Assembly (NCBI GenBank): GCA_021555105.2
Contig: CP134604.1
Location: 186,001-250,000, forward strand
DNA from: Thalassospiraceae bacterium LMO-JJ14
GTDB lineage: Bacteria; Pseudomonadota; Alphaproteobacteria; Rhodospirillales; Casp-alpha2
Length of the DNA stretch: 64,000 nucleotides
Reading direction: 5' to 3'
Below the pieces are notes generated by a model. That model had not been told where the DNA came from. It worked only from the letters and a program-made list of their open reading frames with translations, and made no database searches. Numbering within the stretch: position 1 is the first letter of the stretch; the number at the start of each line of letters is the position of its first letter. The position numbers and the translations under genes were made by a program. Positions 11,376-14,525 of this stretch are shown piece by piece.

Positions 11376-11474
11376 CTCCCCTCTCCCGGCGCGCAGGCGC
11401 GCCACCCTCTCCCCGGGGAGAGGGGTTTGCCGGTCACCGGGCGGAAGTTCCACCCCTCTCCCTAGGGAGAGGGG
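11376..11474. repeat. CCCCTCTCCC-type inverted repeat (family B, copy 1)
   Basis: This stretch between the convergent pmbA and dagK-like genes is built from CCCCTCTCCC blocks facing GGGAGAGGGG blocks, separated by a central part containing TCACCGGGCGG and GTTCCACCCCTCTCCC. The same central part recurs at 14401-14525, so the two are copies of one element. Further relatives are at 21450, 25863 and 27857. Confidence 0.85.
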
Positions 11475-11476
11475 AC

Positions 11477-12394
11477 TCACCCCGGCATCAAAAGCGCCAG
11501 CGCGGCGGGGGCCAGCGTGATGCGGGCCGGCAGACTGGCGAGGATATCGCCGTCGCCCTGTACCGGTTCCGCGTCGACGCGTTCGACGACGATGTCGGTC
11601 GCCGGGACGATTTTCACGTCCGGCAATTCGTGCAGCCGCCCGAGCGCCATCCATACGGCGTAGCGCATGGTCCGGAGCGCACCCGGTTTCATGAACAGCA
11701 CGACGTGCAGCGTCGGGTCCTGCAGCCGCGCATCGGGTGCGCAGACGAACGTGCCGCCGTAAAAATGACCGTTCGCAATCACCGCCGAGGCGACGTCGAA
11801 ACGCGCGCCGTCGACGATGACCCGGTATTTCGGAAACTTGAAACAGACCAGCGCCTTCAGGGTCGAGATCACGTAAGCCACCTTGCCGAACAGCTTCTTG
11901 ATCATCGGTTTGACCTCGGCAACGACATGCGCATCGAAGCCGAAACCGGCCATCATCACGAAGCGCCGCCCGTTGACGATGCCGACCGATATCGGCTGCG
12001 CGACGCCGTGGGCGATCGTCTCGGCGATCTCGCGGGGGGAACCGCCGAGGCCGATTTCATGGGCCAGCACATTGGCGGTGCCGAGCGGAATGATCGCCAG
12101 CGGCAGTTTCTTGTCACCGAGCCCGTTGACCGCCTCGTTGATCGTGCCGTCGCCGCCGGCCACCGCGATCACGTCGTGCTGCGTGGGATCGGCGGCGCGC
12201 GCGAAAGCTTCGGCGTCGCCGCGCCTTGTCGTCGGGCGCACGTCGACGTCGACACCCTCGGCGATCAGGGCGCTGAGGATCCGCTCGAAGCGGCGGCGCC
12301 GACGCCAGCCGGCGGTCGGGTTATGAATAACAAGGACGCGCCGGTGCGGGCGCCCAGCCAGCTCGCTTTCCGGCAGCTCGTCGGGACTGGTCAC
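11477..12394 (-). CDS. Diacylglycerol kinase family lipid kinase (YegS/DagK-like)
   Basis: A 305-residue cytosolic lipid kinase of the DAGK catalytic-domain family, which phosphorylates diacylglycerol or similar lipids using ATP. The nucleotide-binding motif GGDGTINEAVNG sits near residue 80, preceded by VLVIHNPTAG and followed by PLGTANVLAHEIGL and the substrate-side motif AGFGFDAHVV. The last third is the beta-sandwich of this family. It is divergent from a metallophosphoesterase/glycosyltransferase pair that may produce and consume diacylglycerol, which suggests that all three work on the same lipid pool. A YegS-type phosphatidylglycerol kinase or a sphingosine-kinase-like activity are alternatives. 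Confidence 0.9.
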   Translation of the reverse strand: MTSPDELPESELAGRPHRRVLVIHNPTAGWRRRRRFERILSALIAEGVDVDVRPTTRRGDAEAFARAADPTQHDVIAVAGGDGTINEAVNGLGDKKLPLAIIPLGTANVLAHEIGLGGSPREIAETIAHGVAQPISVGIVNGRRFVMMAGFGFDAHVVAEVKPMIKKLFGKVAYVISTLKALVCFKFPKYRVIVDGARFDVASAVIANGHFYGGTFVCAPDARLQDPTLHVVLFMKPGALRTMRYAVWMALGRLHELPDVKIVPATDIVVERVDAEPVQGDGDILASLPARITLAPAALALLMPG

Positions 12395-12454
12395 AGGAAA
12401 ATCTCCGAATTACCCGGGGGCTAATACCTAACTCATAACCAACATCAAAAATAT

Positions 12455-12483
12455 ATGTAAGTCATGTGACAAAACGGTGAAGG
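12455..12483 (-). promoter_or_regulatory. Pho-box-like array of three half-sites
   Basis: Read on the minus strand, three seven-base half-sites follow each other at an 11-base period: CCTTCAC, TTGTCAC and CTTACAT, separated by the four-base spacers CGTT and ATGA. Compared with the PhoB consensus CTGTCAT the matches are 4, 5 and 5 of 7. The array lies in the 145-base AT-rich gap between the divergent dagK-like gene and the metallophosphoesterase, where it could serve either promoter. Spacing is convincing, base identity only moderate. Confidence 0.4.
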
Positions 12484-12579
12484 TTTTTAATCGTCACAAA
12501 AGTAAAATATGCATCCGTTATTGTCCAACCACTAAATAACGTGGTTCTGGACAATAATACTGGGCAGAGATCTGAGACT

Positions 12580-13434
12580 GTGAACGAGCTCTCCAAAAAG
12601 CAACATCGTTACCGCAGCATATGGATCTCGGATGTCCATCTCGGCACGCCGGGCTGTCAGGCGGAAATGCTGCTGGACTTCCTGAAGAACACCGAAAGCA
12701 AGTACCTGTACCTGGTCGGCGACATCATCGACGGCTGGCGCATGAAGCGGTCCTGGTACTGGCGCCAGGCGCATAACGACGTGATCCAGAAAATCCTCAG
12801 AAAGGCGCGCAAGGGCACGCGGGTCATCTACATCCCCGGCAACCATGACGAAAGCTTCCGCGACTTCACCAACCATCGCTTCGGCCGCGTCGCCGTGCTG
12901 TACGAGACCGTGCACACCATGGCCGGCGGCAAGCGGTATCTGGTGCTGCACGGCGACCGCTTCGACGGCGTCATCAAGTACGCCAAATGGCTGGCATTCC
13001 TGGGTGACCATGCCTACGCCGCGGCGATCGCCGTGAACCTGTGGTTCAATCTTGTTCGCCGCAAGTTCGGCCTGCCGTACTGGTCGCTGTCGGCGTTTCT
13101 CAAGCACAAGGTCAAGAACGCCGTCGAATACATTTCCAAGTTCGAGGACGCCGTCGTCGAGGAAGCGCACCGGCGCGGCACCGACGGGGTCATCTGCGGG
13201 CACATCCATTCCGCCGAAATCCGCGACATCGACGGCATCAGATACTGCAACGACGGCGACTGGGTCGAAAGCTGCACGGCGCTGGTCGAGCACGAAGACG
13301 GCCGGCTTGAAATTCTCCACTGGGCCGAGATGCAAGGGCTCTCGCTGTTAGGGAAAGACACATGCGACTCCTCATCGTCAGCGACGCCTGGCTTCCTCAG
13401 GTCAATGGCGTTGTCCGTTCGCTCGATACTGTAA
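12580..13434 (+). CDS. Calcineurin-like metallophosphoesterase, PlcP / UDP-2,3-diacylglucosamine diphosphatase-like
   Basis: A 284-residue two-metal phosphoesterase with the complete motif set: ISDVHLG, GDIIDGW, GNHDE, a late LHGDRFD and GHIHSAEI. Automatic pipelines usually call this group UDP-2,3-diacylglucosamine diphosphatase (LpxH-like). The same group includes PlcP, the PhoB-controlled phospholipase C of marine and soil alphaproteobacteria that cuts phospholipids to diacylglycerol, and PlcP is typically followed by the Agt glycosyltransferase, as here. The neighbouring lipid A genes keep an LpxH role possible. Two GTG starts are possible, 12541 and 12580; neither has a good ribosome site, and the second is closer to the conserved RYRSIWISDVHLG. 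The last 24 codons overlap the next gene in another frame. Confidence 0.85.
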   Translation: MNELSKKQHRYRSIWISDVHLGTPGCQAEMLLDFLKNTESKYLYLVGDIIDGWRMKRSWYWRQAHNDVIQKILRKARKGTRVIYIPGNHDESFRDFTNHRFGRVAVLYETVHTMAGGKRYLVLHGDRFDGVIKYAKWLAFLGDHAYAAAIAVNLWFNLVRRKFGLPYWSLSAFLKHKVKNAVEYISKFEDAVVEEAHRRGTDGVICGHIHSAEIRDIDGIRYCNDGDWVESCTALVEHEDGRLEILHWAEMQGLSLLGKDTCDSSSSATPGFLRSMALSVRSIL

Positions 13435-14390
13435 GGCAGGGCCTGTGCGAGCGCGGCCATACGCTTGAGATGGTCACGCCGGATCGCTTCAACACCATTC
13501 CGTGTCCGACCTATCCGGAAATCCGCCTCGCCGTTCTGCCGGGCGCCAAGACCGCGTCCCTGATCGAAAACTTCCGCCCCGACGCCATCCACATCGCCAC
13601 CGAAGGCCCGCTCGGCCAGGCCGCACGCAAGCACTGCCTGGCGCGCGGTTATCCGTTCACCACCGCGTATCACACGCGCTTTCCGGAATACATTCATGCC
13701 CGCTGCCGGTTTCCGCTGAGCTGGAGCTATGCGCATCTCAGGAAATTTCACAATGCCGGCAAGCGGATCATGGTGGCGACGCAGACCATCGAGGACGATC
13801 TGGCGGCGCGCGGCTTCAACAACATCGTGCGCTGGACACGCGGCGTCGACACCGAGCTGTTTCACCCCCGCAGCGAACCGTTTCTGGATTTTCCACGCCC
13901 GATCAGTGTCTACGTCGGCCGTGTCGCCGTCGAAAAGAACATCGAGGCGTTTCTGAAGCTCGACATCCCCGGCACCAAGATGATCGTCGGCGACGGCCCG
14001 GCCCGCCGCGAACTCGAAACCCGATACCCCGACGCCAAATTCGTCGGTGCGCGCGAAGGTACGGATCTGGCGCGGCATTTCGCGGCCAGCGATGTGTTCG
14101 TGTTCCCGAGCCGCACCGATACCTTCGGCCTTGTGCTTCTGGAGGCACTGGCGTCGGGCCTGCCGGTCGCGGCCTATCCCGTCCCCGGGCCGCTCGACGT
14201 CATCGGCACGGCCCCGGTCGGCGTGCTCAGCGAAAACCTCGAAGCTGCCGTCAAAAAGGCGCTGGTCATCGATCCCGTGCTGTGCCGCCAACATGCGGAA
14301 GGGTTTTCATGGGATAAGTCCATCGACCAGTTTTTCACCAATCTCTATCCGTTCCGGGGTGAAGGCGCGTTCGGCAACGCCGCCGCCTGA
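13362..14390 (+). CDS. Glycosyltransferase family 4 (Agt-like)
   Basis: A 342-residue GT-B enzyme. The N-terminal domain starts with the acceptor-side motif SDAWLPQVNGVVRSLDT and carries HIATEGPLG and AYHTRFPEY. The C-terminal domain has VYVGRVAVEKN and the sugar-nucleotide motif VFPSRTDTFGLVLLEALASG with its spaced glutamates. This profile matches the diacylglycerol glycosyltransferases (Agt) found next to PlcP in alphaproteobacteria, which build mono- and diglycosyl lipids when phosphate is short. The ATG at 13362 overlaps the end of the metallophosphoesterase gene by 73 bases, indicating tight coupling. Assignment as a lipid glycosyltransferase is by context; lipopolysaccharide or phosphatidylinositol mannosyltransferases share the same fold. 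Confidence 0.88.
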   Translation: MRLLIVSDAWLPQVNGVVRSLDTVRQGLCERGHTLEMVTPDRFNTIPCPTYPEIRLAVLPGAKTASLIENFRPDAIHIATEGPLGQAARKHCLARGYPFTTAYHTRFPEYIHARCRFPLSWSYAHLRKFHNAGKRIMVATQTIEDDLAARGFNNIVRWTRGVDTELFHPRSEPFLDFPRPISVYVGRVAVEKNIEAFLKLDIPGTKMIVGDGPARRELETRYPDAKFVGAREGTDLARHFAASDVFVFPSRTDTFGLVLLEALASGLPVAAYPVPGPLDVIGTAPVGVLSENLEAAVKKALVIDPVLCRQHAEGFSWDKSIDQFFTNLYPFRGEGAFGNAAA

Positions 14391-14400
14391 TCTCCGCAAA

Positions 14401-14525
14401 CCCCCTCTCCCGGCGCTTCGCGCCACCCTCTCCCAAGGGAGAGGGGTTTGTCTATCACCGGGCGGTCGTTCCACCCCTCTCCCTTGGGAGAGGGTGGCGA
14501 ACGAAGTGAGCCGGGAGAGGGGGCT
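14401..14525. repeat. CCCCTCTCCC-type inverted repeat (family B, copy 2)
   Basis: The copy is of the same subtype as 11376-11474, sharing the TCACCGGGCGG and GTTCCACCCCTCTCCC core. It is longer, with outer arms CCCCCTCTCCCGGC and GCCGGGAGAGGGGG that can pair over the full element. It lies between the glycosyltransferase and msbA genes, so any msbA promoter would lie in the 100 bases after it. Confidence 0.88.

Follow-up and report, generated by a model that had tools for sequence, protein, structure and literature searches.

The window analysed here, the whole stretch of 64,000 nucleotides, carries a compact module of three genes predicted to act on membrane lipids. dagK, encoding a YegS/DgkB-type lipid kinase of 305 amino acids, lies on the minus strand at 11477-12394. 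It is divergent from plcP, which encodes a calcineurin-like intracellular phospholipase C of 284 amino acids (12580-13434, plus strand), and from agt, which follows plcP and encodes a GT4 glycosyltransferase (13362-14390, plus strand). Domain matches bear out the positions and the divergent layout that an earlier note had assigned to these genes. The 3' end of plcP is overlapped by agt over 73 bases, and we place the start of plcP at the GTG at 12580, an alternative in-frame GTG at 12541 being less likely; the divergent gap between dagK and plcP is then 12395-12579. Upstream the module is flanked by pmbA, downstream of plcP-agt lie msbA-kdtA-lpxK-lpxL, and a pst-pho operon is found in the genome. 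By repeat comparison, the module is bracketed exactly by a palindrome-rich direct repeat of 76 nucleotides on the plus strand, with one copy at the dagK edge (11398-11473) and a second, 89% identical, at the agt edge (14419-14494). The core of the repeat occurs twice genome-wide at up to three mismatches, both times flanking the module. Such repeats could allow deletion of the module by recombination, and in the congener G002 different elements of similar look flank it on both sides.

The phosphoesterase matches the Metallophos domain (1.7e-10) and is the sole match of its kind in the 3.89 Mb genome. Its identity to the PlcP of S. meliloti, whose gene lies next to the sin quorum-sensing genes, is 53%, and to the PA3219-type PlcP of P. 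aeruginosa, whose gene precedes Agt1, 54%; we take both reference genes to be plcP from their neighbours and the known layout of the two loci. The calcineurin-type metal motifs DxH, GDxxD, GNHD and GHxH are all present, and D18/H20, G47, D48 and D51, G87, N88, H89 and D90, and G207, H208 and H210 are invariant in the alignment (A1). In a tree of 38 sequences, four of them LpxH, the PlcP group including this protein splits from LpxH at 100/100, which for LpxH answers the question of grouping that the earlier note had raised. The curated LpxH models, whose cut-offs are 134 and 190 bits, give this protein only 42 and 36, close to the 38-55 bits of the two reference PlcPs and far from the 364-389 bits of E. 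coli LpxH. No meaningful alignment was obtained between the phosphoesterase and E. coli LpxH, and PDB structures of LpxH are no more than distant relatives. LpxI, which performs LpxH's task in many Alphaproteobacteria, is encoded here, and a search of 41 genomes found it in 38, whether or not they carry plcP. By equivalog cut-off, grouping and genome need alike, the protein falls outside LpxH, and it groups with PlcPs that have been studied experimentally (PMC8528852 and papers cited there) and is adjoined by a putative glycolipid synthase gene, the overlapping agt. On these grounds the phosphoesterase is a PlcP, as first proposed, predicted to hydrolyse phospholipids to diacylglycerol under low phosphate. 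The alternative offered at the time, an LpxH- or LpxG-type lipid A enzyme belonging with the downstream msbA-kdtA-lpxK, could appeal to the gene's place upstream of msbA-kdtA-lpxK-lpxL and to the public naming of its relatives as UDP-2,3-diacylglucosamine diphosphatase, but we regard it as extremely improbable given the identities, the model scores, the tree (built with LpxH but not LpxG sequences), the presence of LpxI and the many relatives that have msbA with no phosphoesterase gene. PlcP is systematically misnamed in this way (as LpxH) in public records, for example in L283, L284, L285 and on other plasmids. The plcP-agt1 pair is carried by three plasmid records, and on the P. aeruginosa plasmid pHPA0698-2 (L284) it is accompanied, as on the chromosome, by the adjoining adenylate cyclase gene.

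The assignment of the glycosyltransferase to Agt, also made in the earlier note, is upheld by its Glyco_transf_4 match (2.5e-20) and by 52% identity to P. aeruginosa Agt1 (PA3218), so that both GT4 family membership and homology to a characterised Agt are in place. Its gene order agrees: agt follows plcP in 20 of the 22 named dagK-plcP loci. The agt product is likely to be a diacylglycerol glucosyl or glucuronosyl transferase, which would make MGDG or GADG.

The kinase contains both DAGK_cat (2.8e-30) and YegS_C (2.7e-24) domains, scores 158 bits with TIGR00147 (cut-off 118.65) and has DgkB and BmrU as PDB relatives, which places it in the YegS/DgkB family. A YegS_C search of the 3.89 Mb genome returned this protein as its one match, and E. 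coli-type DgkA (PF01219) was found neither here nor in 40 of the 41 genomes searched; the kinase is therefore the genome's only recognisable diacylglycerol kinase. The GTxND motif of DgkB is not conserved in it, GTVND of DgkB being replaced by GTANV. All module kinases from which the motif could be extracted have GTANV or GTANC, while 35 of the 60 class members gave no regex match. Because the domain-level definition of the family is satisfied, we read GTANV as a subfamily difference. GTANV or GTANC may nevertheless mark a subfamily with another substrate, in which case diacylglycerol would perhaps not be what the enzyme phosphorylates; diacylglycerol as its substrate, like the regulation discussed below, is thus put forward here as a prediction.

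The gap shared by dagK and plcP contains a Pho-box-like array of three half-sites, CCTTCAC-N4-TTGTCAC-N4-CTTACAT (12455-12483, minus strand). The half-sites described in the earlier note were recovered exactly on the minus strand, CCTTCAC at 12477-12483, TTGTCAC at 12466-12472 and CTTACAT at 12455-12461, with the 11-base period and 7-base direct repeat of a PhoB-type promoter. The array points at dagK and lies about 60 bases from its start. Scored strictly against the E. coli 18-mer consensus, the best half-site pair agrees with CTGTCATNNNNCTGTCAT at 10 of 14 positions, a match that falls short of significance when this gap is taken by itself (P = 0.146 compared with shuffles), and this scoring was therefore replaced by a 7-base half-site matrix derived from nine sites in the pstS promoters of this genome and related ones, independent of the tested gap; the genome's own pstS promoter has three half-sites. 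With this PhoB-type matrix, the scan that had been suggested for the gap ranks the three-unit array 3rd among the 127,944 positions of the window, both strands counted, with p = 0.035 within the gap. Best scores in the 68 genomes that have the divergent gap average 11.0, compared with 0.7 in dinucleotide shuffles, and 46 of the 68 reach p<0.05; the adjoining divergent gap between ofrA and pmbA scores 0.49 against -0.21 in shuffles. Additionally, four congeners show almost no change in the block holding the array, and the flanks of the gap diverge among them. The same four congeners nearly invariantly keep a plus-strand stretch directed toward plcP, TCGTCAC-AAAA-GTAAAAT (12491-12508), which is weak by the matrix and which, compared with the pstS TTGTCATAAAA, we list as a tentative half-site region. 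Taken together, matrix, congener conservation and class-wide enrichment support a Pho-type promoter in the shared gap, to which PhoB would bind in this strain.

The divergent arrangement turned out to be widespread. Among 385 genomes sampled evenly across the class, 63 of 141 plcP genes adjoin dagK (about 45%), and in all 63 cases the two genes are divergent and separated by a short gap. The arrangement, which the earlier note suggested would be new, is therefore not peculiar to this genome. In several families of the order dagK, plcP and agt lie together between pmbA and msbA. About a dozen relatives, among them the congener G006, have none of the three in that slot, msbA coming straight after pmbA. 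Co-occurrence of plcP and dagK has an odds ratio of 15.7 (p 1e-25, uncorrected for phylogeny), and named carriers of the pair include Azospirillum brasilense, Novispirillum itersonii, Caenispirillum bisanense and a Reyranella MAG. Some genomes, such as G010 and G015, keep dagK without plcP, and G031 and G014 have plcP elsewhere. In G010 (L051) dagK occupies the slot between pmbA and msbA, and about 1.4 kb with a different reading frame, apparently a hydrolase, replaces plcP-agt. Judged by this distribution, the arrangement of dagK divergent from plcP-agt is old and common in Alphaproteobacteria.

Whether the Pho signal belongs to plcP or to dagK can be read from loci where the two genes are apart. 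Arrays were found in 23 of 40 class plcP promoters lacking dagK and in 42 of 57 named plcP loci lacking it, and a search beside the control plcP genes for a hidden, weak divergent dagK found none. By comparison, only 1 of 20 dagK genes away from plcP has an array, and we rejected isolated dagK genes as independent Pho targets. The named plcP set, mostly betaproteobacterial, in which 7 of 42 arrays are on the minus strand, had suggested that minus-strand arrays are specific to dagK; this was dropped when matched class controls gave 13 of 23 on the minus strand. Since arrays accompany plcP genes that lack dagK, are missing from nearly all isolated dagK genes and are of mixed orientation in class plcP promoters with or without dagK, the Pho signal is, on this evidence, a property of plcP promoters, and dagK would reach it by position. 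Of the proposal that one promoter couples DagK to PlcP/Agt, the Pho-type gap stands; the Pho response of dagK itself is an expectation only, the arrays tracking plcP and facing both ways.

The reading we favour, with a probability of roughly 70%, is that the locus combines PhoB-type lipid remodelling by PlcP and Agt with a kinase that converts surplus diacylglycerol back into phosphatidate. Under phosphate shortage, binding of PhoB to the array in the shared gap (12395-12579) would lead to expression of plcP-agt. From membrane phospholipids PlcP would release diacylglycerol and a phosphoalcohol, and Agt would add sugar to the diacylglycerol, giving a glycolipid free of phosphorus. Part of the released diacylglycerol would be phosphorylated by the divergent kinase to phosphatidic acid, a step that may keep diacylglycerol from accumulating in starvation or allow phospholipid synthesis to resume once phosphate returns. 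The PlcP and Agt steps are predicted from close homology to studied systems, and the return step through the kinase is our own extension of them. The sequence supports the PlcP and Agt identities, the kinase family, the Pho-type array, the conserved divergent layout and the pattern in which the three genes are present together or missing together in one slot; glycolipid production, the sign and timing of dagK control, the diacylglycerol substrate and PhoB binding are what the model would predict. The orientation of the array toward dagK, the genomes with dagK only, the isolated dagK genes without arrays and the GTANV motif all count against remodelling with a kinase arm.

Two other accounts of the kinase deserve weighing. 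In the first, dagK is counter-regulated: PhoB bound in the gap would activate plcP-agt and block dagK, so that diacylglycerol goes to glycolipid in starvation and to phosphatidate on recovery. Re-phosphorylating diacylglycerol during starvation would waste phosphate, and the array does lie close to dagK, yet it faces dagK in the activating orientation seen at pstS, and in P. putida DagK is enriched, not depleted, at low phosphate (PMC5082522). We consider this account unlikely. In the second, which we judge rather improbable, dagK, though conserved as a neighbour, has a separate function and the phosphate response is that of plcP-agt alone. It would explain why Pho arrays accompany plcP rather than isolated dagK genes, why more than half of the class plcP genes have no dagK and why plcP of Pseudomonas and Sinorhizobium adjoins other genes; it sits poorly with the joint presence or absence of all three genes in one slot, with 63 of 63 adjacencies being divergent across a short gap, and with a kinase that is the genome's only diacylglycerol kinase and matches the product of PlcP. 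Going beyond the favoured reading of kinase-assisted remodelling at this locus, the notion of a widespread alphaproteobacterial three-enzyme unit, whose dedicated kinase is the cell's only diacylglycerol kinase and is tied into the phosphate response by way of the shared gap, stands in our estimate at even odds. If it is true, lipid remodelling would have a third arm, the regulated return of diacylglycerol.

Lipid remodelling is a major bacterial answer to phosphate scarcity in ocean and soil, and models of it describe a one-way flow of diacylglycerol from phospholipid to glycolipid. That a kinase is tied to plcP in nearly half of the alphaproteobacterial plcP loci sampled suggests that a return path is built in. 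The locus also illustrates how routinely PlcP is wrongly annotated under the name of a lipid A enzyme, UDP-2,3-diacylglucosamine diphosphatase. We found no description of the divergent unit of dagK and plcP-agt in the literature searched, the scope of which did not extend to two key papers of the field.

The plcP-agt pair itself belongs to a known pathway that replaces phospholipids with glycolipids under phosphate scarcity (PMC4796936, PMC9239053, PMC8528852). In Pelagibacter, Agrobacterium, Methylosinus OB3b and P. aeruginosa (PA3219-PA3218) plcP is likewise followed by agt under a Pho-type array, and the P. aeruginosa PlcP and Agt1 are 52-54% identical to the proteins here; the difference is the divergent lipid kinase sharing the promoter gap, a gene order not described in those three papers. 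Involvement of a kinase has a parallel in P. putida BIRD-1, where the phosphate-limitation proteome (PlcP, DagK, OlsAB) counts both PlcP and DagK among the Pi-depletion proteins (PMC5082522), placing a diacylglycerol kinase with PlcP in the low-phosphate lipid response, although that paper gives no gene arrangement and its DagK may be of either the YegS/DgkB or the DgkA type. In SAR11, a diacylglycerol kinase catalytic domain protein, a metallophosphoesterase and a group 1 glycosyltransferase found only in HTCC7211 are over-represented at BATS (Sargasso Sea) together with phosphonate and phosphorus genes (PMC3686209); the same three kinds of protein are thus co-enriched there, but they are listed separately and not described as a module. 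With the soluble lipid kinases DgkB and YegS, the kinase here shares the two-domain family and the GGDGT motif, and differs in having GTANV where they have GTxND. The locus is thus a recurrent form of a known pathway, with the adjoining kinase as the added part.
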